64,000 bases of DNA from Desulfosoma sp. (GTDB lineage: Bacteria > Desulfobacterota > Syntrophobacteria > Syntrophobacterales > DSM-9756). A program made the translations under genes and the position numbers. Shown here one piece after another: positions 431 to 26,842 of the stretch (the first letter of the stretch is position 1; each line of letters opens with the position of its first letter). The notes under the pieces are model-generated. The model worked only from the letters and a program-made list of their open reading frames with translations. It was not told the DNA's origin and searched no databases. The stretch spans positions 411,782-475,781 of the forward strand of contig JBBFKY010000001.1 of the NCBI GenBank assembly GCA_037481875.1. Reading direction: 5' to 3'.

Positions 431-842
431 GTTTCGGGCCGACTCTACACGTTACACTAGGCCGATCGATTCAAAGGACAAGGGATTTACCTTGGTGGAA
501 GTCCTGGTTTCCCTTTTGGTTCTGGGGGTTGCGCTCATGTCTTTATGGGGATTTCACTGGACTTCGCGCCATGTCAACATGAATTCCAAAAGAGAAGCGA
601 GGGCCCTGCTTCTTGCCAATGAAAAACTGGAAGCCTATAGACAGGCCATAGCGGACAATAAAACTTATAACCCCAATGGGACAGAAACACTAACGCAAGA
701 TAAAGTCGTCTACACCAGGACAACAACGTCGGTCCTCGATCCTCTATACAGCTGGAAGAGAAATGTCACTGTTTCTGTGCAGTGGAAGGAGCAAAGAGGT
801 GGCCAAGGCCAAGTGGTGCTTCAAACCATCGTGGTGCCCTAG
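420..842 (+). CDS. Minor pilin, PilV-like prepilin
   Basis: A 140-residue protein with a class III prepilin leader: 22 basic residues ending in Gly, then FTLVEVLVSLLVLGV. Glu sits at mature position 5, as PilD peptidase/methylase substrates require. The ATG at 420 was chosen because it overlaps the upstream stop and gives a normal leader; an upstream ATG at 348 would give an unusually long one. The short globular part, with 'ALLLANEKLEAYRQ' after the helix, resembles the PilV/GspI group. It holds D-N-K-T, N-G-T and N-V-T sequons. Expected role: minor pilin of the PilV-PilW-PilX-PilY1 priming/tip complex. Confidence 0.78.
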   Translation: MWTRFRADSTRYTRPIDSKDKGFTLVEVLVSLLVLGVALMSLWGFHWTSRHVNMNSKREARALLLANEKLEAYRQAIADNKTYNPNGTETLTQDKVVYTRTTTSVLDPLYSWKRNVTVSVQWKEQRGGQGQVVLQTIVVP

Positions 843-1911
843 TAGGCACTCTCCTGAGGCTGCTCCTGTTATCAGGGATGGTTTCAGGAAATTTCCGCCC
901 CGGGGGTGGAGCGAGGGCATGACCCTTGTGGAACTCATGGTCTCTCTGGCCGTGACCGCTTTGGTCATGGCGGCGGCCGTGAGTATTTTTTCCGCCCAGC
1001 ATCGAAACTATGTGCGAGATCGGTCGGAAAAAGAGGTTTTTCAAGATACCGTGGATGTCCTCAGAGTCCTGCAAAGGGACCTTCTTGAGGCGGGATGGGC
1101 CGTTGCGCCCAACATGGCTTTTCTCATTCGAGACGGCGGGGACAACTCATCGGATGAAATTTACATCAATGATGTGGACCTGATCGATCCCGTAGACGAT
1201 GCGGAAAGGCTTGTGAAGGCGGCTGCATGTCCTGGGTGCCTGAAAGTGAGCTCCATTTCGGGTTCGACAATAGCTTTGGAAGATCCGTGGGAACCTTCCA
1301 CCAACCCGAATTATGTTTTGGATATCGACGGAGACATCAAGCCACCAGACAACAAGACAGATATTGACATCGGCACTTATCTCATCAGTGATGCTACGGG
1401 TTTGGATAATAAAACGGGTCGCGTGGTGAGCCTATCCGGCACGAGTGTAGGGATTGACAGTTCTTCCCTGAAAGGGACTTTGGTGGCTCCCGCCATTTAT
1501 TACTGCGTGGACGGTGGGTCAGCCCCATGCCATCCGTCCGGCGCTCAAGAGACTTTTGTCCTACGTCGAAATGATCGTAGCACTAAGGGCAAAGCCCTGC
1601 CCATCGCAGATAATGTGGTGGATCTACAGGTGGCCTACCAGGATGATTCTGGAAACTGGTACGGTCAGACCGGCTGTTCCGGCTCAGGTGTCGGCTCTGG
1701 GTTTTGCGAGCGAAGACCTTTTGAACCCAGCCGTATTAAGCTGATTCGTCTGAGCGCGGTGGTTCGAAGCCCGACCAAAGACAAGGACCGTTTGGCAGAT
1801 CCCGCCTTTTGCCGTCCGGCTGTAGAAAATCGATCAGCGGGGACAGGGCCCCATGAGTGCGGTTACCAGTATAAAGTTTATACCGTCCTGATCTACCCTC
1901 GAAACACCTAA
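799..1911 (+). CDS. Minor pilin, PilW-like prepilin
   Basis: About 370 residues. The prepilin motif is Gly-Met-Thr-Leu-Val-Glu followed by a hydrophobic helix, so cleavage would leave Met as residue 1 and Glu at +5. No ATG lies close to the leader. The GTG at 799 has AAGGAG about 7 bases upstream and overlaps pilV by 44 bases; it gives a 40-residue leader, long but workable. An in-frame ATG at 763 is the alternative. The length and large C-terminal domain fit PilW. Two D-N-K-T motifs and one D-N-S-S motif are present. Four cysteines or more in the globular part could form disulfides. Third gene of the minor-pilin operon. Confidence 0.78.
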   Translation: MAKAKWCFKPSWCPSRHSPEAAPVIRDGFRKFPPRGWSEGMTLVELMVSLAVTALVMAAAVSIFSAQHRNYVRDRSEKEVFQDTVDVLRVLQRDLLEAGWAVAPNMAFLIRDGGDNSSDEIYINDVDLIDPVDDAERLVKAAACPGCLKVSSISGSTIALEDPWEPSTNPNYVLDIDGDIKPPDNKTDIDIGTYLISDATGLDNKTGRVVSLSGTSVGIDSSSLKGTLVAPAIYYCVDGGSAPCHPSGAQETFVLRRNDRSTKGKALPIADNVVDLQVAYQDDSGNWYGQTGCSGSGVGSGFCERRPFEPSRIKLIRLSAVVRSPTKDKDRLADPAFCRPAVENRSAGTGPHECGYQYKVYTVLIYPRNT

Positions 1912-1924
1912 AGGACAGGCGACT

Positions 1925-2500
1925 ATGAGCAAGGCAAAACCACCTGTGAAAGTGCAATTGTCAAGCCCTGGAGGATCCCAGGGCAGCATTTGTAAGAGCC
2001 CCTTGAAAGACAATCAAGGTACTGCCATGGTGCTGACACTTTCCGCCGTGGCTTTGCTGAGTCTTCTGGGTGTGTGGCTTGTGGTCCAGAGTGGATCGAC
2101 ACACCGAATGACCCAGTCTCTGGAGCGTCGGGAGAGCACTTTCAATTTGGCCGAAGGCGCCCTTCAGCTCAGTTGGCGCTGCCTTCAAACGGAGTCCAAC
2201 GAAAAAATTCTTAAGGATCTTAGAAAAAAACAAGACGTGACCCCGGCACCCGGAATTGTTTCTTATATGAAGCCCAACCAATCGGTCGACAATCAGACCA
2301 AAGCTTCACGGACTCTTACGCCGCGCCTCATGTTTCTGGAGACTGCAACCGTTCCTGGATGGGATATGTCCAAATTTCGAGGCTATTATTATCTGGCCCA
2401 GGGAGAGGGGCGGGAAGATCTTCCCGACCAAAAGGGTGGACCTGCCCGATCTCACGTGGTGATGGTCGTTCAAAAGATCGGGCAGGTTTCTTCCCGCTAA
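1925..2500 (+). CDS. Minor pilin, PilX-like
   Basis: A 191-residue protein. After about 31 polar residues comes 'GTAMVLTLSAVALLSLLG' and then a helix carrying 'RRESTFNLAEGALQ', the PilX N-terminal pattern (no TLVE motif; an acidic residue follows the hydrophobic core and a conserved AEG lies further along). One D-N-Q-T sequon is present. It starts 13 bases after pilW. It is the last gene of set 1 on this strand; only 21 bases separate its stop from the stop of the convergent pilY1, so the two transcripts meet tail to tail. Role by family: minor pilin that works with PilY1 at the pilus tip. Confidence 0.75.
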   Translation: MSKAKPPVKVQLSSPGGSQGSICKSPLKDNQGTAMVLTLSAVALLSLLGVWLVVQSGSTHRMTQSLERRESTFNLAEGALQLSWRCLQTESNEKILKDLRKKQDVTPAPGIVSYMKPNQSVDNQTKASRTLTPRLMFLETATVPGWDMSKFRGYYYLAQGEGREDLPDQKGGPARSHVVMVVQKIGQVSSR

Positions 2501-2521: not shown

Positions 2522-5500
2522 CTACTGACGCTGCTTCCAGCCGCTTTTTTCCACAGGAGGCGGCAGATCCACTTTGAGCCGGTGAATGACCCCGTTGCTC
2601 GTCTGAATAAAAAGATATTCACCGGAGGAATCCATCACAGGTCGGCTGGGCATGCCTTCCCCCAACTTCAACACGTAGCCGGTGTTGCTTATTTGAGCGT
2701 ACTCACCTTCGCCCAACTGATCAGGTGTCTTGTTGACTTTGGTAAAGCCGGAGTTCTTGAACGGGTCGAAATTCATGGGGCGGCACATGTAATCCACCGC
2801 GTACAGATAAGCGTCGCCTCCTGCCGCACAGGGATCTTCTTTTGGAACAAAGCTTGTAAAGAAAACCACACCCCCTGCGATCAAAGCCGAATCCACCACC
2901 CGCTCCCCTGGAATGCTTAGGTCCTTAACGCACGTCCAGCAGGAATTGTTACATGAGGTTTCACAACAGTCTGGGCTTCCATCACTTTTCACCCACGCGC
3001 AGTTGCTGCTGAAGCTTGAAGAAGCACACAGGAATTGTGCGGAGACACTGAGGCCGTTGTAAGAAAAACCTGCTGGAAAAACAGAGGGTCGCGTCGCATT
3101 ATCCCGAATGGCGTAAAAAGACATGGTTGCCGTGTCGGTGCGATCGTCCAGTCCGCCGACCACGTTGTCGTATTTACCCGTGCCGCAATACACCCAAGGG
3201 TTCTTGTAGGGATCTAGTGTGACGACGGGCATGACAGTGATGGGTTGACGCCCGGATCGGTAGATATTTGTAGTTGTAGGCGCGGTTTTCGACTTTCTAA
3301 CGGTCAAATGAATACCTGGTTGTGAAGCAAAGAGGTTGAACTTAAGGGTGTAGAAATTGCCGTTGAGATCGCCGAAGGCGATATAGTCCACCTGGCCGTC
3401 TTGGGCCGCTTGGCCTTGGGAGTTCCACAGGTCAACGGCTACCGGATCTCCTATGGCATAAGGAATCGTGTTGGAACCGTTGGTGACCTTCGGCCAATTT
3501 GTTCCCCATGTATTGGTAATTTTAGGCCAAAGGTACTGAAAAATGTTCACCCCTTTTTCAATGTCGATCGCCAACAGGTTAGGCCTCAGGAAGGCCAATT
3601 TCTGATTGTCAGTCAGGGATCCAGGAAGATCCACCTCGGGCTTGAATGTATGCGGGCTGGCTCCAAGAAAAGCAAACCAGCCACTTAGATCATTGGAACC
3701 ACGGCACGACGAAGAGAGGGAAGGTGCCCCGCCTTCTAATGGTTCGACTCTCTCTTTTGCCATGAAACACACCGCCTCTGGAGTATTCAGATATCCCACG
3801 TAGGGAACCGTCCAGGATACAGGCATGGTGGCCACTTGAGAGTAGGTGGCATTGTCCAAAAAAGGCATGTCCGCTGTGGAATTATCTATAACGAGGTTCC
3901 TAAGAACAGCGTATTCCCAAAGAACTTTGGGTTTATCAGGATCCGTCACATCAACGGCAAAATAGACGTCGCCCCCTCCCCGTTCTCCTCCAAGAAGAAC
4001 CGTTCGCCATTCGCGGGTTCCGTTACCATCATGGTCGATAAAAACATCCCAGGCCACAGGAGAAAGATCCACCATGGTGCGATGGGCACATGCCGAAGGA
4101 TGACCGTAGTCGGGTTTCGCCAAATGTTTAAGTTCTGGAAGTAGGTTACTGGGTACGTACGCCCAGAGTTCCTTGCCTATTGAACTTCCATGAGTGCTAT
4201 TTTTCGGATCATAGACCCAGGTAGAGGTGTTATTATCCCAAACACCCACAACGAAGGCGTGAAGCATGCCATCGTTAGCGCCCACATAAACCATTTTTTT
4301 TCTGGTGGTGTGTTTTTGGCGAAAGCAATAAAAGCACTTCTTGGAACAGTTATCCATTTCGGTGCCACTGCACGTGCAAGAACAATCGCCGGCGATGTGC
4401 GGATCCACAGAGCTAACGGATGGAGGGCCGACAACGACGGGTGTGGAATACACAATGTCCCCCAAAGACCATCCTTTGCGATCTCGAGCGACTGCAGACC
4501 ACGAATCGTTCCATTCACCGCGCACCCATTGAACCAAAGCTTTGGCATCTTCTTCCGTTTGGGAGCCATTCTTGTCGAAATCGATGGTGTTTGCCAAACT
4601 GGTTTTAATAACCGACCATTTGGACGGCAGCGAGGAATAAAAAGGAGCATTGCAAGAGGAGGTGCCATTGTCAAGTCGTAGCATGGTCCCTTTGTCCATG
4701 GTAAAGATGCAGCGGTTTTTCGGATCTGGGATGCTCAATATTTTTCCGGCATCCCAGCAATATCCGTCCACAAAACCTGGATCGGAGCAAAATTTTCCTT
4801 TGTTTAGAGACTTTTGGAAACTATAAAGGCTGCCACGACACTGACCGAGATACCACTGACAACCGGAATAGCTATTACATGTTGCGTTATCTGTGAAATC
4901 CTTACAACCGTCATAAGGCCAATAAGCTTCCAGATGGCCTTTCCATGCATAGATGTTGGGGTTGTCTTCATAAGCGGTAAAGGCGCCTCGAATAACCAGA
5001 TCTTGCCCAAGCACTTCCTGAGTCACTGTCGCCACGGCTCCAGCACTCCCGGCCTTGGTAAGAATCGCTAACATTGCCTTTTCCAGTTTTTTTTCGAGTT
5101 CCAGAGGATTGTCCACAAAGAAGTAGTTATCCGGCACACCATTTTGGTCTTTGTCCCATTCATTCGTGTTATTATCATCGGGCATACGGTTTCCGTTAAG
5201 ATCATCAAATCCACCCCATTTGGCCGCGTACCAGAGGGGATTTTTAAGTATTTGCGAGGCGTTTCCTGTCACGGTGAACTCTTTTTCCCAGGTGAGAGGC
5301 ATACCAGCCACAGCAGCCGGTGTGTTGCTGTCCGCCGAGTTCGGAACATCTTTATCTTTTACGACCAGATAAAGACCGTCTCGGTCTGTTCCTGAAATGA
5401 CGAAGCCCAAAACTTGATCAATGCTGCCGGCGGCGTAATCAGACGTGAGCTTAACCTTCACCTTATTCGGCACGACAGCTTCAATTTCATAAAAAACAAT

Positions 5501-7579
5501 AGCGTCCATATCGTGATCGGCACCCTGCTCGACGTCTTCAAAATTCACGCGAAACTTCGCTTTGATCAAGTTGGACGCGTTGTCGTACGTGGCGTTGTCC
5601 ACATAAAAATCGACAATCTGGTTGGAGGGGCAATACGCACCTGAGGTGCAGTTATCGATTTCCAGAACGTCATTGGGTTTTGTCAGCTTACATTTGGCGG
5701 CACACGCCGTGTAGACGTCATGGGTTCCGCTGACGCTTTTGCCGACGGGAACCAGCTGCACATGTTGATTGCCTACTTTGACTCGAATATCAGGAATAGG
5801 AGATGACATCGCCACCACATAAGTGGTCACCTTAGGTATTCCCTCTTTTTCTTGGATGTATTCCTTACCGTAGTAGGCTACAGCAGCTGAGTAAAAGCTT
5901 CCTTGCTTCGTGGGCTCTTCCGGGCAAAGTCCTCGAACAGAGCTGAGGTTGGCCAGGGTTTTGGACGAGCAAATAAAGTCGTAGATATCGCCGCTTCGGC
6001 CTATAAAGAATTTGTTGTTATTGAGCTTCTCCTGAGTTCCAATGACGTTGGCGAGAGACGCTACGTTCAAATCCGTCAGATCCCCTGAAAAGCTACCGAA
6101 GTAAGTCCCAGGTATCTGGTCGGAATCGTAACTCGGATTGATATCGCTTAGAACGAGAAGGTTTGGATTGGTGCAATCAGGGAAAAGGTCAAATGGGTGT
6201 AAATTGTTGTTTCCTTTCTTGATATACCAATCCGGCTTGGGAAGATTCAGGCCGGCGTCGTTATTTTCACTATATTCAAAAGCGCTTGTTGGACTTCCCT
6301 TTCCGGTTATGAAGCGGAAAGCTTCATACATCATTTCAGCCACGGGGTTTCCCCACATGCGGCATTGGCTTTCCGCAAGAGGAGCACCCGTGATCCAGCC
6401 GCAGGTTCCACCGTCCTGGTCCTGGTAAGAAAAGTCAGAATAGCGAAATCCCACGGGACTCATGCGGTCAAGAGTGAGTATAATGTTTCCTTGCACGTTT
6501 TCAGAAGTCTGAAAAATTCCGGACTGCGAGTTGATTTCGTCCATGACCGTCCAGATGTTTTTTCTAAGAACCCCGCCGCTCAAGTTTTTCCTGTAGGATC
6601 CCGTGAGAAGGCCCATGTAGAGTGGGCTTCGAAACACACAGAGTCCATCGTTGGCTCCGCAGTCGTTGTCTGTCTGACAGGCTTTATAGGTCTTGGAACA
6701 CATTTTGGATCCGTCCCCTTCGCCGTACTTCTGAAGAAGACCGACAGGCTTAGGCGTGGTCCCACCCCCGGGATAGAGTTTACAGTAGTTCTTCTCTTCC
6801 CCCTTATTCCAATCTGTACTGCACACCTGAACTCGAACGAAATAGTCCTGGATGTCGTTTCTCGTACCGACAGGTCCACGCCGATAACCTGAAGGGGTTT
6901 CGGGGCCGCTACAGACGGCACGCTCCGTCGTGGCCCATTCCCATATTCGATGTTCGTCATTCAAAGCGACACGAATTTTGTGAGCCTCCCCCTTTGCTGT
7001 GCTGGTCACGCAAAACAAATGGCGCTTTCCTGGGGAAGGTGGATCGAACGGTGTCAACTTCTTAGTGTCACTGCCGCTGTATTCTTTACCCCAGCTATGC
7101 GCATCTTGAGGTATATAAGCGCCTTCGAGAACGGTTTCACTAGCGCTATCGGTAGAACGATGTCCCCCGTAGAGCACCCGCCGCAGCACATCTATACGGG
7201 ACATGGAAAGCCAATTGAGGAAATTCCCGCTCCATTCGTTCGTCCCTCCACAATATTTTGTGCTCGTATATCGAGTAGGGACAAACCTGGCTTGTCCTGT
7301 TGTTTCGTACCTGTAGCATTTATAGGGATCAAAATACCCGAAATAATCTAAATCTATAGAGTGTTTGTAGCCGACATCCAATTTCCCGTCACCATCTAAA
7401 TCTTGAGCATCGTTGTAGGCTTCATAGTATAATTTATGATCTCTTTCCATAACCATCATCACCATGGGATTGGCACCGGCGGAAACAAAAGGAGGAGGGT
7501 CGCAAGAGGGCGTATAAGCCTGAGCCGGTGACAAAATCAAAAAAGAGAGAAAGACTAAAAAAAACGTGTTTCTTACCAT
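2522..7579 (-). CDS. PilY1-family pilus tip protein, giant (copy A)
   Basis: A 1685-residue exported protein with a signal peptide ending near 'SPAQA' (residue about 21). An acidic calcium-type loop, DLDGDGKLD, lies at residues 60-68. The middle has 'SDINPSYDSDQIPG', typical of this PilY1 subgroup, and more Asp/Asn loops near residues 795-820. The C-terminal part has PilC/PilY1 beta-propeller repeats: 'YVGANDGMLHAF', 'ELWAYVPSNLLPELKHL', 'VYFAVDVTDPDKPKVLWEY'. No von Willebrand A metal site (DxSxS) is evident; that position reads 'VMERDHKLYY'. Cys-rich patches lie near residues 1060-1090 and 1535-1550. I count about 21 N-x-S/T sequons, 11 with Asp before the Asn. By family: calcium-dependent adhesin and regulator of pilus extension. 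It is inverted relative to set 1 minor pilins. Confidence 0.88.
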   Translation of the reverse strand: MVRNTFFLVFLSFLILSPAQAYTPSCDPPPFVSAGANPMVMMVMERDHKLYYEAYNDAQDLDGDGKLDVGYKHSIDLDYFGYFDPYKCYRYETTGQARFVPTRYTSTKYCGGTNEWSGNFLNWLSMSRIDVLRRVLYGGHRSTDSASETVLEGAYIPQDAHSWGKEYSGSDTKKLTPFDPPSPGKRHLFCVTSTAKGEAHKIRVALNDEHRIWEWATTERAVCSGPETPSGYRRGPVGTRNDIQDYFVRVQVCSTDWNKGEEKNYCKLYPGGGTTPKPVGLLQKYGEGDGSKMCSKTYKACQTDNDCGANDGLCVFRSPLYMGLLTGSYRKNLSGGVLRKNIWTVMDEINSQSGIFQTSENVQGNIILTLDRMSPVGFRYSDFSYQDQDGGTCGWITGAPLAESQCRMWGNPVAEMMYEAFRFITGKGSPTSAFEYSENNDAGLNLPKPDWYIKKGNNNLHPFDLFPDCTNPNLLVLSDINPSYDSDQIPGTYFGSFSGDLTDLNVASLANVIGTQEKLNNNKFFIGRSGDIYDFICSSKTLANLSSVRGLCPEEPTKQGSFYSAAVAYYGKEYIQEKEGIPKVTTYVVAMSSPIPDIRVKVGNQHVQLVPVGKSVSGTHDVYTACAAKCKLTKPNDVLEIDNCTSGAYCPSNQIVDFYVDNATYDNASNLIKAKFRVNFEDVEQGADHDMDAIVFYEIEAVVPNKVKVKLTSDYAAGSIDQVLGFVISGTDRDGLYLVVKDKDVPNSADSNTPAAVAGMPLTWEKEFTVTGNASQILKNPLWYAAKWGGFDDLNGNRMPDDNNTNEWDKDQNGVPDNYFFVDNPLELEKKLEKAMLAILTKAGSAGAVATVTQEVLGQDLVIRGAFTAYEDNPNIYAWKGHLEAYWPYDGCKDFTDNATCNSYSGCQWYLGQCRGSLYSFQKSLNKGKFCSDPGFVDGYCWDAGKILSIPDPKNRCIFTMDKGTMLRLDNGTSSCNAPFYSSLPSKWSVIKTSLANTIDFDKNGSQTEEDAKALVQWVRGEWNDSWSAVARDRKGWSLGDIVYSTPVVVGPPSVSSVDPHIAGDCSCTCSGTEMDNCSKKCFYCFRQKHTTRKKMVYVGANDGMLHAFVVGVWDNNTSTWVYDPKNSTHGSSIGKELWAYVPSNLLPELKHLAKPDYGHPSACAHRTMVDLSPVAWDVFIDHDGNGTREWRTVLLGGERGGGDVYFAVDVTDPDKPKVLWEYAVLRNLVIDNSTADMPFLDNATYSQVATMPVSWTVPYVGYLNTPEAVCFMAKERVEPLEGGAPSLSSSCRGSNDLSGWFAFLGASPHTFKPEVDLPGSLTDNQKLAFLRPNLLAIDIEKGVNIFQYLWPKITNTWGTNWPKVTNGSNTIPYAIGDPVAVDLWNSQGQAAQDGQVDYIAFGDLNGNFYTLKFNLFASQPGIHLTVRKSKTAPTTTNIYRSGRQPITVMPVVTLDPYKNPWVYCGTGKYDNVVGGLDDRTDTATMSFYAIRDNATRPSVFPAGFSYNGLSVSAQFLCASSSFSSNCAWVKSDGSPDCCETSCNNSCWTCVKDLSIPGERVVDSALIAGGVVFFTSFVPKEDPCAAGGDAYLYAVDYMCRPMNFDPFKNSGFTKVNKTPDQLGEGEYAQISNTGYVLKLGEGMPSRPVMDSSGEYLFIQTSNGVIHRLKVDLPPPVEKSGWKQRQ

Positions 7580-7814: not shown

Positions 7815-7842
7815 CCAAAGCTTGTGGGTTTCTAAGCTTTGG
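7815..7842. repeat. Perfect 9-bp inverted repeat upstream of pilE
   Basis: CCAAAGCTT at 7815-7823 and AAGCTTTGG at 7834-7842 flank a 10-base loop. There is no T-run after it, so it is not an ordinary terminator. It could be an RNA stem in the pilE leader or an operator. Confidence 0.5.
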
Positions 7843-7911
7843 AGTGTGCCATGCGATCACCGAAAGGCCTTTATCGCCGATTCGGCCGAAAGTCTCCTTC
7901 GGGTGAACCGA

Positions 7912-7928
7912 GGCAAAGGAAGTGCCCA
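7912..7928 (-). promoter_or_regulatory. Candidate sigma-54 promoter toward pilY1 (A)
   Basis: Read on the minus strand: GGGCAC, 5 bases, TTGCC. GG and GC are separated by exactly 10 bases, as in minus 24/minus 12 promoters, but the first consensus T is G. It would start transcription near 7900, about 320 bases before the pilY1 start codon, which is a long leader. It is the weakest-placed of the sigma-54 candidates here. Confidence 0.35.
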
Positions 7929-7940
7929 AAGAAGGCTCTC

Positions 7941-8351
7941 ATGTCGATGCGGCAGAACGAGGGTTTCACTTTGGTGGAACTGATGGTCACGGTGGCCGTT
8001 GTGGCTGTTTTGGCTGCCGTGGCTGTGCCGGCTTATGTGAACCATGTGAGGCGCTCGCAGCAGGCGCAGGCGGTGGAGGCTCTTTTGCGGGCGCGCCTGG
8101 AGATGGAGGCGTATTGGGCCGATCATCATCAATATCCGGACAGGTTGCAGCTTCTTCCATCTTTCGAAAGCGCGACTCAAGGGAAATACATCCTGCAGCT
8201 GCAAATCTTTGCTGACGCTCAGCGTTATCGTATCGAGGCCGTGCGGCCTGACCTAGGGGACAAGCTTCATATCGCCGATAACGAAACAACCCCGGTGGTG
8301 GATACTCCGAAGGCCCTGGGCTGGTCTCTTTTTCACTGGATTTTTGACTGA
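7941..8351 (+). CDS. Type IV minor pilin, PilE-like prepilin
   Basis: A 136-residue protein from the ATG at 7941, which has GAAGG upstream and gives a short typical leader (MSMRQNEG) before FTLVELMVTVAVVAVLAAVAV. Upstream in-frame ATGs at 7839 and 7851 would add about 30 basic residues and are less likely. After the helix, 'EALLRARLEMEAYWADHHQYP' is the common PilE-family pattern. A D-N-E-T sequon lies near the C-terminus. First gene of set 2. It could be a major-pilin relative, but the absence of the usual C-terminal Cys pair and its position in a minor-pilin operon favour a minor pilin. Confidence 0.78.
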   Translation: MSMRQNEGFTLVELMVTVAVVAVLAAVAVPAYVNHVRRSQQAQAVEALLRARLEMEAYWADHHQYPDRLQLLPSFESATQGKYILQLQIFADAQRYRIEAVRPDLGDKLHIADNETTPVVDTPKALGWSLFHWIFD

Positions 8352-11538: not shown

Positions 11539-11857
11539 AAGCAGTGCCAAGGTTCCTTGAAGCTTGTTCGAGAAAGCATTTCTTTTTGGGAGCGCGGGAG
11601 TCGCGCCCGCATGGAAAGCGGGCCGAAGACCCGCGCCGCCACGAAAACAAAGGCTTTGGGATTTAGGAGCACGGCGTATCGTACCCTTGCGCCTTAGGCG
11701 AAATGGCTCATTCTTAGTTCTCGAATAAGGTCGTAGAAGCGTGTCCGAGAATTGAAAAAGAACCTCTTTGGGCAGGGCCATGTCAAGGTGTGGGGGCGAG
11801 GCGGCGCCTCGCCCTTACAAACCTGAAAATGTGTTTTTTGCCGGAGAAGACATTTCA
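11539..11857. other. Intergenic region between pilX and pilY1 (B)
   Basis: 319 bases without a convincing gene. It is GC-rich between 11585 and 11640, with several short complementary G/C blocks, and carries a near-perfect palindrome at 11794-11814. The frame of the following pilY1 stays open back to 11768, but the better ribosome site is at 11842-11848, just before the ATG at 11858. I see no clear promoter. Confidence 0.5.
11794..11814. repeat. GC-rich palindrome, dispersed repeat copy 1
   Basis: Arms GGGCGAGGCG (11794-11803) and CGCCTCGCCC (11805-11814) around one base. Related palindromes occur at 15735-15764 (degenerate) and 18105-18127, all between genes in this pilus region, so this looks like a small dispersed hairpin element rather than a gene-specific signal. 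Confidence 0.65.
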
Positions 11858-14800
11858 ATGAAAAGCACCTCAGAGTACGGTCAAAAAAGAAAACGGAGAA
11901 AGCCGAAGGCTTGGCTAGGCCTGATGACGGCAGCCTTTTTGACCAGTGTCCTCTGGGGATCTCCTGCGGCCTCGCTCAATGTTTGTGAACCGTCACGGTC
12001 CGTCCACTACGAAGGATCCTGGCAAAGCGAAGATTTCAGTGTGCTGGATCCATCCGTTGTTATTGACGACAAAAGCGGGCATCTCGTGCTGCATGCAGGG
12101 GGGCATGACGAATCTGTGACGCGTTTTGTCACAGCCATGCCCCAGGAAGTGCGCGTGACCTTCATCTTTCGGGGGTCCGAAGCTTCAGGGCATCATCTAG
12201 GCTATTTCCTCAGGTCTTCAGCGGAAAAGAAAGGCTATGTGAAAAGTGATGGAACTTTGGATCGATCGGCTTTTGTGAAGGCCATAGACTTTACCGACAC
12301 AGCATCCTATGACAAGGAAACATTTCATTACCTCTGGACTTGTCTTCGAGACGATAACCATAACGGTATTCTGGACAAACCCTACGGGGCAGGGTGCTTG
12401 CGATCCTTTTCGGAAGCGTCGGCAAGCGGCGTTGATTTTGCCGAGACGGAAGAAATCCTCGGCGCTATAGATGATGGCACGGGGCTGCCTTTCGTCCCCG
12501 ATGGGGACGGCCGTTTGACCGTTCGCGATATGACCAAAAGCCTGGGTATCATTGGAGAAGGGCAAGAAATTATCTTTTTTCTTGTGCCTCAAGGCCGTTT
12601 CCAGGATACCTATTTGACCGAAGCTTCTTGGAATTCAGATGTTTACAGGGGAAAGGAGCCTTGCACAACCACTTTCGCCTCGGGGGCGACGCCCAAGAAA
12701 TACCAGGTGGGTCTAACGGCTCATGATAATGGAACCTGCGCCGCCGTGTCCCCATGGCTTCCTCAACAGGCATTGGCACGGCTTCGACAAAGCTTCGGCC
12801 TTGAATTTGATCCAGATCATGAAATAGCCCTTTCATTACAAACGGGAAAAAAATTTCCTCATGCGCTTGTGACTTCAACCCCTGATGTTCCCGGTGTTCG
12901 CATTCTAGCGTGGGAAGAAGATGTGGAAGGGGGCGATACGGACCATAACGATCTGGTTTTTGCCGTGGCCATCAAAGCAGTGGGTCGTGTAGTTTCGAAG
13001 GATATAAGTTCCACAGATCCTTTGCAGGAAAAGCCTGTAATTACGGCTGTGGATCTTGAAGTGCGAGACCGCAGAGCCCCATGCGAAGGTTTGGACACAG
13101 GGTTTTTTCTTGATTCCGGTTCCTTTTCCAATGGGAATGTTAGCTATAGTGTCAGCCTGGACAACGGGACGACATGGATTCCCGTGGATCGGTGGGAGGA
13201 AGTTCAAGACCACGAAGACGGTTCTCAAACTCGAAAAGCGCATCTGGACCTGATTAGTCTCGGCCGTGCGGGTCGAACCCTGAGATGGAAAGCCCTCTTG
13301 GAAACGGTCAACACGCGATGTCTTTCACCGGCAATCATGGATGTGCGATTGGACTTTACGGCTTCAGACCAAGGGACTTTTTCTCGATCCGATCCGGTGG
13401 TGCTCGGAAATGCTCTTTATTCCGCAGGATTGGAACTTCCATCGAAATCGACGCTCCCTGAGGCTTCTTTTCGTGGTCACCTTTTCTCCTATCTTATCTA
13501 CGATCCATCAAATCCGGCCACACCCCTTTTTCAGCCTCTGTGGGATGCAGGCCAAGCCCTGGCCGAACGATCACTTCAGGCAGACCCTCGAACCATTGGT
13601 ACCGCTGTCGCGGAAGCCTGTTCGGTTCGAGAAAACGTTGCAATTGGCGATGGGACCACTCGGCGTTTTCAGGGAACGCTGCAACACAAAGATGTCCTTT
13701 CCGGTACCATGCTTTTTCGGTCTCTATCTTCGTCAGGAATTCCTATGGTTTTGCGTGATAATGGAATCGGCGTTTTGACAGGGGACGGCTCTGGAAGGCT
13801 CCACCGCTCTGAAGGCGCTTATACTTTGGAGTTTCTTTTTCCACCCTGCAAGGGATGTCCTGTGACGGCAGAATATGCTTATGCCATTTCGACATCCTCC
13901 TTTCGATCGTTTTCGGAAACAACCATCACGGATGTTATGTTGGGTTTGAGCGATGCTGTGATACACGGAGAAGGGTTCCATTGGGATCTCAACAGAGACG
14001 CTCGGTATGACTCCGAAGATCGACGGCATCTTATACGATGGGTTCTTGGGTTTGACAAGGGCACCCATGAAAGACCTTGGCCTCTGAACGGAATCGATCA
14101 CAGCACGCCCGCCGTCGTAGGCCCTCCGGGGTTGCCTCCGTGGTATTTCGGCACCCAAACCTCCGAAGAGGAACGAGAAGCCTATGATCATTTTCGGCAA
14201 TCGGAAACGATGGCCCATCGACCAACCATCGCTTACGCAGGAAGTCTCGGGGGCATGATCCATGCCTTTCATGCCGGATCCTATCAACACGGGGATGATC
14301 CGCGAACCACTGTCAAAGAAAATCGGGGCTACTTTTTGCCGGGAGAATACGGAGATGGAAGCGAGCTGTGGGCCTATATTCCTTCAAGCCATCTTTCACG
14401 GCTCAAATCCCTGCTGAAACCTGAACCGTGGCTGTATCCGCCTGTGGTCAATGCCTCGCCCTGTGTTCAAGACATTGCGGTTCGAACTGAAACGGGTGGG
14501 ACTTTCCGGACCGTGCTTGTTTCAGCTCAGGGTACCGGAGGCGACACGGTTCTGGCCCTGGATGTGACCGATCCGCAAAAGCCCTCTTTTCTATGGCACT
14601 ACAGTGACCCGGCGCTGTACCGAAGCGGGGCTGCTCCGGCCATGGCCAAGATCGGTCGGCTTCAGGATGCAGGCTCGCCGGTCTGGGTGGTTTTCGTGAG
14701 TTCGGGACAAACCGATTTGTCCGAATCACCTTCCCTGTTTCTTTTCGATGCCGCTTCGGGAAAGCTTCTCAGAAAGATTTTCCTGGATTTGGGGGCGTCC

Positions 14801-15625
14801 AACAGAGGCGCCGTTTTGAGCGGAAGCGCTGCAGCGGTGGATACCGACGGAAACGGGTATGTGGATCGACTTTATGTGGCGGACAGCAAAGGTCATGTGG
14901 TTCGTCTAGACTTTCCCGATCGTGCCGATATGGCCTGGGACCCGGCAAAAATTCGCGTGAGCCTTTTTGTGAAGGTGTCCTCGTCCATCTATGCGACACC
15001 GGCGGTTTATATCGCCCATACCTACAAGCCGGATGGTGGCATCGATCAAGCGCACGTGAAGATCATGTTTGGAATTGGGGATGATCCAGCACGAAGGGAC
15101 AACCCTCGTGTCCCCACGGCCTATAAATTTTATGTCTTCGACGATTCGTGCCGCATGGATTGGACGGCCGGCGTCCTTCGAGATAACAACGGTCAGATCT
15201 GCTCTTCTCAGGGCATGAAATCAGAAGCCGAGGCCGAGTGGGTATGGAATCTTCCGGCAGGTCATCGAATCTGGGCGGAAGCGGTTGCAGCGGCCGGTAT
15301 GGTGTATTTCGGCACGGCGGTGACCGAGACGACAGATCCATGTTCTCCACCTCAAGATGATGAGAGTAAAGGCGGTAAAGTGTATGCGGTGGATCTTTCG
15401 GCTTTGGATTTTCAAAAGGAACCTAGGCTGATGGCGGAGACAGGCGGAAATGTCACGGCACTTTTTGTGGAAGATCAGCACCTTTATGCCAGAGTACACC
15501 TCAGGGATGCGGGATCACGCGTGCAGGTGGTGGGCGAAGGCGTCTTTAACAACGAAACCCTTTTAGGAACAAGCTATGTGACAAAGGCGGTCAAAGGTTC
15601 CTGGCGTCGCATTTTAGAAAAATAA
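11858..15625 (+). CDS. PilY1-family pilus tip protein (copy B)
   Basis: About 1255 residues. The ATG at 11858 follows GGAGAAG and opens a signal peptide (basic residues, 'WLGLMTAAFLTSVLWG', cleavage near 'SPAAS'). The N-terminal third is unlike copy A. It has two pieces resembling DUF4114-type domains, ending in 'EEDVEGGDTDHNDLVFAV', whose DTDHND loop looks like a metal site. A dockerin-like loop (DLNRDARYDSED) lies near residue 710. The C-terminal third is a PilY1 beta-propeller: 'AYAGSLGGMIHAFHAG', 'ELWAYIPSSHLSRLKSL', 'TVLALDVTDPQKPSFLWHY', plus a calcium-type loop DTDGNGYVD. Six N-x-S/T sequons, two of them D-N-G-T. Role by family: tip adhesin or pilus-extension regulator for set 2. Confidence 0.85.
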   Translation: MKSTSEYGQKRKRRKPKAWLGLMTAAFLTSVLWGSPAASLNVCEPSRSVHYEGSWQSEDFSVLDPSVVIDDKSGHLVLHAGGHDESVTRFVTAMPQEVRVTFIFRGSEASGHHLGYFLRSSAEKKGYVKSDGTLDRSAFVKAIDFTDTASYDKETFHYLWTCLRDDNHNGILDKPYGAGCLRSFSEASASGVDFAETEEILGAIDDGTGLPFVPDGDGRLTVRDMTKSLGIIGEGQEIIFFLVPQGRFQDTYLTEASWNSDVYRGKEPCTTTFASGATPKKYQVGLTAHDNGTCAAVSPWLPQQALARLRQSFGLEFDPDHEIALSLQTGKKFPHALVTSTPDVPGVRILAWEEDVEGGDTDHNDLVFAVAIKAVGRVVSKDISSTDPLQEKPVITAVDLEVRDRRAPCEGLDTGFFLDSGSFSNGNVSYSVSLDNGTTWIPVDRWEEVQDHEDGSQTRKAHLDLISLGRAGRTLRWKALLETVNTRCLSPAIMDVRLDFTASDQGTFSRSDPVVLGNALYSAGLELPSKSTLPEASFRGHLFSYLIYDPSNPATPLFQPLWDAGQALAERSLQADPRTIGTAVAEACSVRENVAIGDGTTRRFQGTLQHKDVLSGTMLFRSLSSSGIPMVLRDNGIGVLTGDGSGRLHRSEGAYTLEFLFPPCKGCPVTAEYAYAISTSSFRSFSETTITDVMLGLSDAVIHGEGFHWDLNRDARYDSEDRRHLIRWVLGFDKGTHERPWPLNGIDHSTPAVVGPPGLPPWYFGTQTSEEEREAYDHFRQSETMAHRPTIAYAGSLGGMIHAFHAGSYQHGDDPRTTVKENRGYFLPGEYGDGSELWAYIPSSHLSRLKSLLKPEPWLYPPVVNASPCVQDIAVRTETGGTFRTVLVSAQGTGGDTVLALDVTDPQKPSFLWHYSDPALYRSGAAPAMAKIGRLQDAGSPVWVVFVSSGQTDLSESPSLFLFDAASGKLLRKIFLDLGASNRGAVLSGSAAAVDTDGNGYVDRLYVADSKGHVVRLDFPDRADMAWDPAKIRVSLFVKVSSSIYATPAVYIAHTYKPDGGIDQAHVKIMFGIGDDPARRDNPRVPTAYKFYVFDDSCRMDWTAGVLRDNNGQICSSQGMKSEAEAEWVWNLPAGHRIWAEAVAAAGMVYFGTAVTETTDPCSPPQDDESKGGKVYAVDLSALDFQKEPRLMAETGGNVTALFVEDQHLYARVHLRDAGSRVQVVGEGVFNNETLLGTSYVTKAVKGSWRRILEK

Positions 15626-17970: not shown

Positions 17971-18104
17971 TGCAAACCTACCCTTGGAGCTTGTCTGACG
18001 TTGAGAAAAGGTGATGCTTTTCTTGGAAGCGCTGACCTGCGGCCTAATCATGATACGGGGGAGACGCCCGCGTTCCCAGGGAAAAGCCTAGTTTCGAGTT
18101 TGTG

Positions 18105-18127
18105 GGGGCGAGGCGACGCCTCACCCC
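18105..18127. repeat. GC-rich palindrome, dispersed repeat copy
   Basis: GGGGCGAGGCG (18105-18115) and CGCCTCACCCC (18117-18127) around one base, with a single mismatched pair. It sits between dsbC and the oligosaccharyltransferase gene and closely resembles the copy at 11794-11814. Confidence 0.6.
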
Positions 18128-18192
18128 AACCTCCTCATGGATTAGGGGCAATGGTGTTTTGAGTTCTCGAACATGTTCCTGGAAGCCATGGG

Positions 18193-18963
18193 TCATGGCT
18201 TTTTCAACTTGTTTTCCAGGCTGGAGCGATCCATGACACCCGAGCGAAACGTTCCGTCCGGAAAAATGTAGGTGGGGGTTCCCCCGATGCCATGGGCTTG
18301 CATGAACTTCATGACGGCCTCTATCTTGTCTGTTCCCTCCTGGCATTGATTGTCCGACTTATAGTGTGCCTTAAATTCTTCATGACCTTTCTTGTCACAA
18401 ATCAAAGCGATGCACGATTCTCGAGCTCCGGGATGCATGGGGAGAGGGTAAAGAACATAGCGAACTTCAAGGATACCCTCAGAAGCCATGGCTTCCAACG
18501 TGGTTTCCGCTTGTTTGCAATAGGGGCATTGAGGATCCGTCACAAAGTACACTTTTTGAGAGGCTTTCGGGGAACCCAAGGTAAAAGCCACCAGACTTTC
18601 CAGGGTTTGCATGTCCTTGGCGGTGAGACGGTTCAGTTCTTCCAAAGTGGCTTGGGTCAGATTTTTTTTGTCCTGGGTGTCAAGAATTTGTCCAAATATG
18701 AGGTATCGGCCCGAGGTATCCGTGTAAAGGAGTTGATTCTTGTCACCGACCACCACATGAACCTGGCAGACGTTAGGCAGAGGGGAGGGGTCGACATTTT
18801 TGACAATAACATTGCGTCCGGCCAAGGATTCTGAAACCTTTTGCTGGACGAGGGCAAGTTCCGGGCATGAAGCGGCAAAAGGTTTCATGGTCCAAAGAAA
18901 CCCGAAACCGAAAAGTATGCCAATACTGGAGAAAAAAAACACCCAGCTTCTTCTGTGGTTCAT
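18193..18963 (-). CDS. DsbC/DsbG-like thiol:disulfide isomerase
   Basis: A 256-residue exported protein. The ATG at 18963 follows AAGGAGC and opens a signal peptide or anchor (hydrophobic stretch to about residue 28, then 'AASCPE', which could alternatively be a lipid-type Cys). The N-terminal part fits a DsbC-type dimerisation domain (strand 'GRYLIFGQILD'). The thioredoxin-fold catalytic motif is CPYC at residues 146-149, after 'VYFVTDPQ', with the cis-proline as GTPTYIFPDG near 229. By family it reshuffles wrong disulfides in the periplasm. It precedes the oligosaccharyltransferase and lies near two Cys-rich PilY1 genes, its likely clients. A sigma-54-like promoter is upstream. Confidence 0.88.
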   Translation of the reverse strand: MNHRRSWVFFFSSIGILFGFGFLWTMKPFAASCPELALVQQKVSESLAGRNVIVKNVDPSPLPNVCQVHVVVGDKNQLLYTDTSGRYLIFGQILDTQDKKNLTQATLEELNRLTAKDMQTLESLVAFTLGSPKASQKVYFVTDPQCPYCKQAETTLEAMASEGILEVRYVLYPLPMHPGARESCIALICDKKGHEEFKAHYKSDNQCQEGTDKIEAVMKFMQAHGIGGTPTYIFPDGTFRSGVMDRSSLENKLKKP

Positions 18964-19048
18964 CTTGTGCTCCTTCCTAAGGGTTCCATCTCGTGCCCAA
19001 AGAACAGATCCTCCAATGGTTGGGCCCACTCAAACCGCTTCACGTTAG

Positions 19049-19064
19049 CGCAAGATGCGTGCCG
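19049..19064 (-). promoter_or_regulatory. Sigma-54-type promoter for dsbC and oligosaccharyltransferase
   Basis: Minus strand: CGGCACG, 4 bases, TTGCG. This matches the minus 24/minus 12 consensus TGGCACG-N4-TTGC except for the first base, and GG and GC are 10 bases apart. Predicted start near 19038, about 75 bases before the dsbC start codon. Confidence 0.6.
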
Positions 19065-19254
19065 ACACAATGCTCATTCAAAAAGACACCGTCTTGTGAC
19101 AATTTTTTCGTTGTAGAGCCTTGTTTATGATGGCATAAAAAAGCGAGACGTTTAATGGGTTTTTTTTCTTATGCTTCGGGCTCCAAATGGACGATTTGTT
19201 GTAAAGGGAGTCATGAAGCTGACAGGACCCAGAGGCAGCGAGGGGGGGAGCCGT

Positions 19255-21018
19255 ATGGATGAATCTCGACGTGAGTGTCGTATTTTCATGTCGAGTGGGG
19301 AATCGCGAGGGCCTTGGATGCCGAGCGGATCGAGCACACCTCTCCCCGGTCGATCCCGTCACTCTTTGGATGGTTTCAAAGGAAGAGCACTGTTGGGTCC
19401 CTCTGAGGTTCAGGATTCGGACCACACGTTTCATCCCAACTTTCCCTCGGAAGCTTCCGTCAGCGATCGAGCGGCCCCTTTCAGATCGTTGCAAGAAACC
19501 CCTCACGAAGCCGGTCCTGAGCCTGTCCCGCAGGTGGATCCGGAAGTATCGCGCCGTGTTCTTTCCGAAGTGTTTCGTTTGAGTCCTTACGGTATCGGGG
19601 TTTTGGATGTTCGAGGACGCCTTGTGGTGGCCAACGAGGTGTTGGAAGGCTGGCTGACCGATCCCGAAAAGGAGGCCGTCAGGGGTCAGGTGGAAGATCT
19701 TTTTGAAGATTCCGAGACAGTGCGACGCCTTCTTCAGCAAGCGCAACGTCTCGGCAGTGCTCAAGAACCGGACGTGACGGTCGTGGACCTTCAGGGGCGT
19801 CGTTTTTTTGTCAGTGTGACCCTGTCTCACATTGATGCGCCTGAGGGGCCGAGCCCATGGTTTCTTCTCATCATGGAAGATATCAGTGAGAAAAAGGCCT
19901 ATTCTCAACAGCTTCTTCGTACGGAAAAATTGGCTTCCCTCGGAACCATGGCCGGCGGTGTGGCTCATGATTTCAACAACATCCTGATGACCATTCTTGG
20001 AAACACCCAACTGCTGAATAAAGAATTGTCCGAGGCGTCTCCTCAGGTACGGCAAAGACTCCAGAACATCGAACAAGCGGTACTGGACGGCGCCCATGTG
20101 GTCCGAAGACTTCAAGTGTTTACGGGAAAGGATACCGGACCTTCTAAGGGAGAGGAAAAGACTCGAATCCATGAAGCTGTAAGGGATGTTCTTGAGCTGA
20201 CTCGACCGCGGTGGAAAAACGCTCTTGAAAAGCAAGGGCGCCGTGTGGAGATCATCAACGCTGTGTCGCCGACTTTATGCGCGGCCATCAATCCTTCTGA
20301 TTTTCGAGAGGTGCTGACAAACTTGGTTTTTAACGCCATTGATGCCATGCCTTTAGGCGGATCGTTACGCTTCAGTTCTTATCAGCATGAAGACCAAATT
20401 GTTGTGGAGGTGACGGATACGGGCGTGGGTATGGACGAAGAAACCCAGAAGAAGATCTTTGATCCTTTTTTTACCACCAAGGGAGCCGGAAACTCAGGTC
20501 TGGGACTCAGTGTCTGTGCCGGTCTTATTCAGCGCTGGTCCGGGCATCTTGGGGTAAGGAGTGTCCCCGGGCAAGGGACCACGTTTACGCTGACATTGCC
20601 GGCGTCTCGAACCGAAGCCTGCCGGCCGGCGGCAGAGAACTTTTCTTCGAAGCAGGTATCGCGAAAGCGGTTGCTCGTCGTGGATGATGATCAAGAGGTT
20701 TTAGGCCTGCTAGGGGACATGCTTCGCCTTATGGGCCATTCTGTCACAGCGTTTCATGATCCGCGCAAGGCCCTTGAGGCCCTTTCGACCCACACTTTTG
20801 ATCTGGTGCTTACGGATCTCGCCATGCCCGATGTGAACGGCTGGGAGGTTGCCGCGTGTGCCAGAAAGCATCAGCCGAAGGTTCCGGTCGTTTTGGTCAG
20901 TGGCTGGGGGGCGCAGTATGAAGACGAGGATTTGAGTGATCGCGGTGTGCGCTGTGTCTGTTCCAAGCCTTTGAGTTATCAGAAGCTTTTAGAGCTCATA
21001 GACCGTTTTTGTTCTTGA
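19255..21018 (+). CDS. Hybrid histidine kinase (PAS, kinase, receiver)
   Basis: About 587 residues, no membrane segment, so cytoplasmic. A disordered, Pro/Ser-rich N-terminus is followed by a PAS-like domain (about 100-210). The dimerisation box is 'GGVAHDFNNIL' with His238. The ATPase domain shows the N box 'NLVFNAIDAM', 'DTGVGM', 'FDPFFTTK' and 'SGLGLSV'. A receiver domain (about 470-587) has 'VVDDDQEV', phospho-acceptor Asp521 in 'LTDLAMPD', and the conserved Lys. The start is uncertain: ATG at 19255 has a GGGGGGAG site; ATGs at 19171 and 19213 are in frame. It is divergent from dsbC. Signal and target cannot be read from the sequence. Confidence 0.88.
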   Translation: MDESRRECRIFMSSGESRGPWMPSGSSTPLPGRSRHSLDGFKGRALLGPSEVQDSDHTFHPNFPSEASVSDRAAPFRSLQETPHEAGPEPVPQVDPEVSRRVLSEVFRLSPYGIGVLDVRGRLVVANEVLEGWLTDPEKEAVRGQVEDLFEDSETVRRLLQQAQRLGSAQEPDVTVVDLQGRRFFVSVTLSHIDAPEGPSPWFLLIMEDISEKKAYSQQLLRTEKLASLGTMAGGVAHDFNNILMTILGNTQLLNKELSEASPQVRQRLQNIEQAVLDGAHVVRRLQVFTGKDTGPSKGEEKTRIHEAVRDVLELTRPRWKNALEKQGRRVEIINAVSPTLCAAINPSDFREVLTNLVFNAIDAMPLGGSLRFSSYQHEDQIVVEVTDTGVGMDEETQKKIFDPFFTTKGAGNSGLGLSVCAGLIQRWSGHLGVRSVPGQGTTFTLTLPASRTEACRPAAENFSSKQVSRKRLLVVDDDQEVLGLLGDMLRLMGHSVTAFHDPRKALEALSTHTFDLVLTDLAMPDVNGWEVAACARKHQPKVPVVLVSGWGAQYEDEDLSDRGVRCVCSKPLSYQKLLELIDRFCS

Positions 21019-26321: not shown

Positions 26322-26337
26322 TGGCACATGGATTGCT
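26322..26337 (+). promoter_or_regulatory. Sigma-54 promoter, full consensus
   Basis: TGGCAC, 5 bases, TTGCT: every consensus position of the minus 24 and minus 12 elements is met, with 10 bases between GG and GC. Predicted start near 26349, about 35 bases before the ATG at 26384. It is the best sigma-54 match in the window. Confidence 0.8.
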
Positions 26338-26383: not shown

Positions 26384-26842
26384 ATGAGAATCGAAACTCT
26401 TGACCCTTTGAGTGCTCTAGCTCAAGAAACGGAAAAGCCGCGATGCAAACAATCCGAGGCGTCCTCCTTTGAGCACGTGCTTTCTCAGGAAATAGCCGAA
26501 GTTGAAGCTAAAGACACTGTCCAGGAACCTCACCCGACACAAGGGCTTTTCCCCGCGGAGATGGAAATCGCGGCGGGAAGTTCCCAGACTTCCTCACTTC
26601 TGCTCGAAGCCGTAAGCGGAACCCTGGATCAACTGCTTGCTGTGTGCTCGAAAAGCTCTGAGGCCTCGGCGAATCTGCAAACCATCAACCAATTGCTTAC
26701 GAATCTTGGTCAGACGGCGGATGAAATTTTACAGAGCACGTCATTCCTTCAGGATGATCACCCTGTACGCCGATTAGCTCAGGAAGCCTCCGTCCTGGCT
26801 TATGTGGAATCCATTAAATGGCGTCGAGGGGATTACATGTGA
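26384..26842 (+). CDS. Unrecognised protein behind a sigma-54 promoter
   Basis: A 152-residue polar, acidic protein without signal peptide or membrane segment. The first 65 residues look disordered; the rest is mostly helical ('LLLEAVSGTLDQLLAVCS', 'LQTINQLLTNLGQTADEIL') and ends in a short conserved-looking 'LAYVESIKWRRGDYM'. I do not recognise a family. The start is 35 bases after a predicted sigma-54 transcription start, which strongly supports expression. The pattern of an N-terminal disordered segment followed by helices resembles small flagellar export or regulatory proteins, but that is only an impression. It overlaps the next gene by 25 bases. Confidence 0.65.
   Translation: MRIETLDPLSALAQETEKPRCKQSEASSFEHVLSQEIAEVEAKDTVQEPHPTQGLFPAEMEIAAGSSQTSSLLLEAVSGTLDQLLAVCSKSSEASANLQTINQLLTNLGQTADEILQSTSFLQDDHPVRRLAQEASVLAYVESIKWRRGDYM

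Follow-up and report, generated by a model that had tools for sequence, protein, structure and literature searches.

A putative sigma-54-driven operon of dsbC and an oligosaccharyltransferase gene in Desulfosoma, and its predicted role in the maturation of type IV pilus proteins

The DNA analysed here, referred to as the window, is a 64 kb stretch (G000:C1:411782-475781) of the 3.4 Mb genome of Desulfosoma sp. (G000). It was compared with two other genomes of the genus (G001 and G002), with Desulfacinum hydrothermale (G006) and with further relatives. The window contains, on its minus strand, a dsbC gene followed by a gene for an oligosaccharyltransferase (OST), and the order and direction of the two genes, as well as the identity of the second, were those given in an earlier, sequence-only reading of the locus. 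The features discussed are collected in Table 1. The dsbC product combines the DsbC_N dimerisation domain with a CXXC thioredoxin domain, as is typical of DsbC, the motif reading CPYC in the translation, and it matches the DsbC chains 4npb and 1eej of the PDB. The OST matches PglB (PDB 5ogl, 6gxc and 3rce) by profile, and the best matches of its predicted model (mean pLDDT 88) are likewise PglB structures, with TM scores of 0.71-0.75. The catalytic acidic residues of STT3 proteins are an Asp in the first loop, a DXD motif and the Glu of an SVSE-type motif, while WWD is a motif of the family. The corresponding residues D55, D163-T-D165, E293 (in a SISE motif) and W432-W433-D434 are invariant across 25 sequences, and we infer that the protein is active in glycan transfer. 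In the profile alignment, R304, which follows SISE (OST residues 293-304, positions 17059-17094), is placed one residue before R331 of PglB, and one may speculate that this offset shifts the recognition of an acidic residue in the acceptor from position -2 to position -1.

Table 1. Features of the dsbC-OST locus and its surroundings (window positions unless a locus or contig is named)
Feature	Position	Strand	Evidence or remark
PilW-like minor pilin, predicted client, 3 D-N-X-S/T	763..1911	+	
PilX-like minor pilin (by position), 1 D-N-X-T	1925..2500	+	
PilY1a, predicted main client, 47 Cys, 11 D-N-X-S/T	2522..7579	-	
Minor pilin, 1 D-N-X-T	7839..8351	+	N_methyl match at C1:419728
PilY1b, weaker predicted client, 2 D-N-X-S/T, 15 Cys	11768..15625	+	Pfam T4P_PilY1 below curated cut-off
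STT3/PglB-type oligosaccharyltransferase, 720 aa	15808..17970	-	Pfam STT3 3e-18, STT3-PglB_core 1e-8
dsbC-OST gap	17971..18192	.	222 nt, apparently enlarged (G001 21 nt, G002 6 nt)
Dispersed palindromic repeat GGGCGAGGCGNCGCCTCNCCC, REP-like	18105..18127	.	Copy counts in genomes
dsbC, periplasmic disulfide isomerase, 256 aa, CPYC motif	18193..18963	-	Pfam DsbC_N 4e-14, Thioredoxin_2 3e-12
Sigma-54-type promoter (putative) of dsbC-OST (-24 GG, -12 GC)	about 19048..19065	-	Identity across the three genomes: core 11/11, spacer 1/5
Private conserved block, candidate activator site	19090..19141	-	Alignments; sequence model R1
TGACA-N5-TGTCA palindromes upstream of the pilA sigma-54 promoter	L071:15090-15125		Same type at pilA of 6 relatives

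The gap between the two genes, with the palindrome inside it, is present as previously described, and on account of the palindrome co-transcription had been regarded as uncertain. In G001 and G002 the dsbC stop codon and the OST start codon are separated by 21 and 6 nt, respectively, and the larger gap of our genome would be a later enlargement. The palindrome, GGGCGAGGCGNCGCCTCNCCC, has 90 forward and 98 reverse matches in our genome when up to 2 mismatches are allowed, and 0 matches in G001 and G002; the reversed control also gave 0. On these copy counts it is a recent REP-like expansion. A second copy lies in the window at 11793-11815. The gap also resembles 31 other stretches of the genome, for the most part around the palindrome. 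A scan for terminators gave no intrinsic one in the gap, and we rejected the palindrome as a terminator: there is no T-run, and the fold of the gap is unexceptional (z -1.5). With short gaps in the relatives, a dispersed repeat and a gap in which the scan gave no terminator, co-transcription is the simplest reading, and the two genes are likely to form one operon. Adjacency of dsbC and the OST gene is found only in the three Desulfosoma genomes. The two genes lie in one cluster in G006, where they are non-adjacent, and no DsbC match was found in the flanks of 42 other OST loci, some of which have short flanks. The idea of a widespread gene pair was therefore abandoned.

The motif CGGCACG-N4-TTGCG noted earlier upstream of dsbC was confirmed on the minus strand, where T-C-GGCACG-CATC-TTGC-G runs from 19065 down to 19049, and GGCACG-N4-TTGC occurs once in the window. 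The site, CGGCACGCATCTTGCG, agrees with the consensus TGGCAC-N5-TTGC (GG-N10-GC) at 10 of 12 scored positions, and C replaces T just before the GG in all three Desulfosoma genomes. Its -12 GC lies about 86 nt from the dsbC ATG (18963), which fits a transcript start near -75. The bare pattern GGCAC-N5-TTGC is no proof of sigma-54 dependence, since it occurs 32 times in our genome as compared with 41 times for the reversed control, and the motif count was discarded as a sole argument. Equally good sites number 29 per 800,000 strand-bases of a sample of the genome, corresponding to 0.009 per upstream region of 250 nt. What raises the dsbC site above chance is conservation across the three Desulfosoma genomes on which this comparison rests: the site lies at about the same distance upstream of dsbC in G001 and G002, and the core (TCGGCAC and TTGC) is identical at 11/11 positions as against 56/187 among the remaining columns (naive p 1.7e-6), with 1/5 identical columns in the 5-nt spacer. 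Judged from the alignment, such an invariant core with a free spacer is what a sigma-54 promoter leaves as its footprint. The genome encodes rpoN (Sigma54_DBD 3e-64) and gives 27 strong matches of 31 to Sigma54_activat. A second near-consensus sigma-54 site, TGGCACATGGATTGCT, is seen elsewhere in the window at 26322-26337, about 50 nt ahead of an ORF at 26384.

Farther upstream of dsbC, the three Desulfosoma genomes have a conserved block of some 50 bp (19090-19141), which we regard as the candidate site of an enhancer-binding activator. Model R1 of the block gives one strong match per Desulfosoma genome (E about 1e-15) and a next best match of E 0.06 or worse among 8 genomes, and a regulon-wide motif was rejected for that reason. 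The distance from the block to the promoter is about 58 nt greater in G002, which is compatible with an enhancer, as enhancers tolerate such variation. No Rex- or CRP-like match was seen in the block by eye. At pilA, a sigma-54 site was found in all of the 7 genomes examined, preceded by two 15-bp palindromes of the TGACA-N5-TGTCA type, which are mostly spaced by about 21 bp; not all copies are perfect, and G005 shows a single clear copy. These palindromes are likely to be the PilR-type enhancer of this family. No conserved sigma-54 site was seen at the other pilus operon starts scanned. The stretch from pilB to pilA contains no activator gene, and PilR must therefore be encoded elsewhere. The genes that come after pilS (L071:6299-8329) are groES-groEL, ileS and lspA, none of them an activator gene; groEL, ileS and lspA are names that we take from recognition of the translations.

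Three other accounts of this upstream region have to be considered. The conserved promoter could be of the sigma-70 type and resemble a sigma-54 site by chance, without control by rpoN. A TTGTNT-N17-TANNNT arrangement does overlap the site; it is weaker, its hexamer positions are also conserved, and the start it predicts is nearly identical (both points judged by eye from the alignment), and the lack of over-representation of GGCAC-N5-TTGC across the genome is in line with such an account. However, most of the invariant core positions lie inside what would be the sigma-70 spacer, the sigma-54 spacer is variable, a scan requiring 4/6 matches per hexamer gave no sigma-70 site there, and rpoN together with the strong activator domains is at hand in the genome, so that we regard a sigma-70 promoter as rather unlikely. 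The upstream block, in turn, could belong to the divergent histidine kinase gene (19171-21018, plus strand) and not to dsbC, as it sits between the two divergent genes in our genome and in G002. In G001 the end of a probable insertion-sequence gene of undated age (L004:900-1110) separates the kinase gene from both the block and the dsbC promoter, and the block is nevertheless still conserved beside dsbC; assignment of the block to the kinase gene is doubtful, though it deserves some weight. Co-regulation of the operon with pilA by PilR through common enhancer sites, as the sequence-only reading had proposed, finds no support and is quite improbable. It would agree with the sigma-54 site at pilA of all the genomes examined and with a half-site, TTGTCAC, inside the dsbC block in 2/3 genomes. 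On the other hand, the search upstream of dsbC for PilR-type sites that had been suggested with it, made with a matrix from the pilA sites in the three Desulfosoma genomes, gave nothing beyond chance. The exact pilA-type palindrome, single or paired, is absent at dsbC, and the strict form occurs once in our genome, at pilA. The dsbC-OST genes and pilA may thus have a common sigma factor, but probably have separate activators.

There is nevertheless a strong case, on grounds other than PilR, for a link between dsbC-OST and the pilus, and in this respect the earlier proposal of a pilus role has gained support, both from the place of dsbC in the pilus cluster and from the sequon load of the pilus proteins. 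The window around dsbC-OST contains two PilY1-like genes and several minor pilin genes, with pilB, pilC, pilS and pilA just outside it. In our genome and in G001, G004, G005, G006 and G007, dsbC and pilA share a contig at a distance of at most about 25 kb, and in G002 dsbC is near pilY1b; the contig of G003 is too short to be judged. In G004, G005 and G007 dsbC adjoins pilY1a and has the same orientation. The stretches fetched around dsbC from six more distant genomes yielded weak histidine kinase matches and no other pilus gene. PilY1a has 44-48 Cys residues, 40 Cys columns being common to all six orthologs, and such a Cys-rich protein is a natural client for a disulfide isomerase. Directly 3' of pilA, a gene for a membrane TPR protein (L071:15902-18292) is kept in the family and is possibly a second glycosylation gene.

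The sequence D-N-X-S/T occurs 11, 15 and 10 times in PilY1a of the three OST-containing Desulfosoma genomes (our genome, G001 and G002), where 1.5-1.6 occurrences are expected for [DE]N-X-S/T, as compared with 0, 0 and 2 times in PilY1a of G007, G004 and G005, three relatives where no OST was found with the Desulfosoma OST as query. The orthologs of these OST-free relatives are 64-72% identical to the Desulfosoma proteins. In the three OST-containing genomes X-S/T follows 65-75% of the DN pairs of PilY1a and 12-16% of other Asn residues (p 0.0002 or less for each protein by within-protein permutation), and the residue at +2 is Thr in 31/36 of the sites. Together the sites occupy 23 columns of the PilY1a alignment, 4 of which are common to all three genomes, one of them being RDNAT. 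For 16 control motifs of like make-up, 15 occupy at most 5 columns and the remaining one, with an acidic residue at -2, occupies 11. Since the motif is kept while its position turns over, selection seems to act on the motif itself and not on its position. The minor pilins and PilY1b add few sites; PilA of our genome has one, and PilA of G001 and G002 has none. The row for pilV of G001, a 3-residue artefact, was discarded from these counts. In a set of 19 pilins and PilY1 proteins, which was chosen by the pilin motif or a length >1200 and thus misses some minor pilins, Asp outranks all other residues at -1 (49/73, OR 12), and Ala is favoured at +1 of the predicted sites. Against the link with the OST counts PilY1a of the OST-free G005, where 2/2 DN pairs are followed by X-S/T (within-protein p 0.024).

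Control samples distant from the pilus genes (about 478 kb of our genome, 400 kb of G001 and 400 kb of G005) revealed no Asp(-1) bias in other secreted proteins, with 2/30 versus 66/473 in our genome, 1/21 versus 26/291 in G001 and 1/21 in the OST-free G005. Secreted proteins were assigned here by a signal-peptide rule so crude that PilY1a of our genome was itself sorted into the class "other". A general trait of the secretome of our genome was rejected on these figures. Neither is the load a property of any genome with an STT3 protein, as PilY1 proteins of genomes in which the OST is of another subfamily and encoded elsewhere (G008, G014, two proteins in G016, and G027) gave 0/6, 2/7, 1/12, 1/5 and 1/5. 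Desulfacinum, which has an OST in its pilus cluster, gave 4/9 (p 0.04). An independent set was formed by the neighbours of 42 other related OSTs, from which the Desulfosoma (L212) and Desulfacinum (L250) loci were deliberately excluded and in which L243 gave no OST row. In their secreted proteins a sequon is found at 19/56 Asn residues after Asp versus 113/922 other Asn residues (OR 3.7, p 4.5e-5). When one locus at a time is left out, the worst p is 0.0018, and permutation within proteins gives p 0.0002 or less. At -1 no other residue does as well as Asp, and the motif D-N-X-S/T is carried by 13/85 proteins in 11 loci. Cytoplasmic proteins of the 42 loci lack the bias (OR 0.92), as do their membrane proteins (OR 0.27). 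The 21 OSTs of this set that were put in a tree are divided from the other subfamily by a 100/100 branch and share their side of it with the OSTs of Desulfosoma and Desulfacinum; in this tree Desulfacinum and two other rows sit on long branches, and many of the inner forks are poorly supported. A rule with an acidic residue at -2 was also tried and rejected, since neither the pilus proteins of Desulfosoma nor the set of 42 loci showed such an enrichment.

The D-N-X-S/T sites of PilY1a might instead be structural, as parts of turns or metal-binding loops whose number has drifted up in Desulfosoma, with the OST modifying other or many secreted proteins. PilY1 proteins are rich in Asp and Asn, and PilY1a of our genome has 126 D and 101 N as compared with 53-66 N in the orthologs of the relatives, which would be in line with such drift. 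We nevertheless consider this distinctly improbable. After DN, X-[ST] is present in 23 columns and X-[AG], X-[LIV], X-[DE] or X-[KRQ] in 0-3, and the excess survives permutation within each of the three proteins. Moreover, the load is missing from orthologs of rather similar sequence, other secreted proteins lack the bias, and the separate set of OST loci has the same bias.

Comparison with known systems places the Desulfosoma proteins as follows. PglL of Neisseria is a pilin O-OST, which serves pilus proteins among others; it belongs to another enzyme family and is O-linked, whereas the Desulfosoma OST is an STT3 protein and would be N-linked. DsbC of E. coli is alike in domain architecture and in the CXXC motif, and differs from the Desulfosoma family in that the gene of the latter lies in a pilus cluster, with pilY1a or the OST gene as neighbour. 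PglB of Campylobacter is, like the OST studied here, a single-subunit STT3-type enzyme with the same catalytic motifs and fold and with Ala favoured at +1. It requires an acidic residue (Asp/Glu) at -2, with DQNAT as the reported optimum (PMC4894442), in contrast to the Asp at -1 that we predict for the Desulfosoma OST, whose likely clients are pilus proteins and whose gene forms a pair with dsbC. Of five OSTs described as relaxed, with poorly defined acceptor rules, three come from Desulfovibrio (PMC4894442). In that work position -2 was varied systematically, and a library screen of positions -2, -1 and +1 with D. gigas PglB looked relaxed. The PglBs of Desulfovibrio, which come from related bacteria, glycosylated an internal RDNAT site, the pentapeptide that is conserved in Desulfosoma PilY1a, while three sequons, RQNAT among them, were not used by D. 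gigas PglB (PMC4894442). HmcA of D. gigas is reported to be glycosylated at TANGT, a site without Asp at -1, which speaks against a strict -1 rule, and such a rule is not proposed in the accessible part of the paper (PMC4894442). A literature search that reached few subscription papers returned none about an N-OST serving type IV pili in bacteria of this group, none on PilY1 as a client of DsbC and none proposing a -1 rule. With the pilA promoter of Geobacter, which depends on sigma-54 and PilR (PMC2725144), the dsbC promoter shares the sigma-54 type and the location within a pilus cluster; it differs in driving maturation enzymes and not pilin, and in having no paired palindromes of the pilA type.

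Taken together, we consider it probable that a sigma-54-driven dsbC-OST operon with its own activator provides a DsbC and an Asp(-1)-preferring OST that mature pilus proteins, chiefly PilY1a. In this mechanism the sigma-54-type promoter would transcribe both genes as one operon, with an enhancer-binding protein probably acting at the upstream block, and both products would serve pilus maturation in the periplasm. DsbC would correct the disulfides of the Cys-rich PilY1a, and the OST would move a lipid-linked glycan onto the Asn of Asp-Asn-X-Thr/Ser, chiefly in PilY1a and also in some minor pilins. In wider terms, we lean slightly towards the view that this deltaproteobacterial clade of STT3 proteins follows a "minus-one rule", Asp-Asn-X-Thr/Ser with Asp-Asn-Ala-Thr as its best form, its Desulfosoma member being devoted to type IV pilus proteins and partnered by a dedicated DsbC on PilY1a. 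The similar PilY1 proteins with and without an OST form a natural contrast, from which a specific and cheaply testable Asp(-1) rule emerges. If the rule is true, it would offer a new sequon for bacterial glycoengineering and would explain the acceptor rule of at least some "relaxed" bacterial OSTs. The N-glycosylation enzyme of this group would then have a named set of clients, and a single operon would tie the isomerisation of disulfides in one pilus protein to its N-glycosylation.
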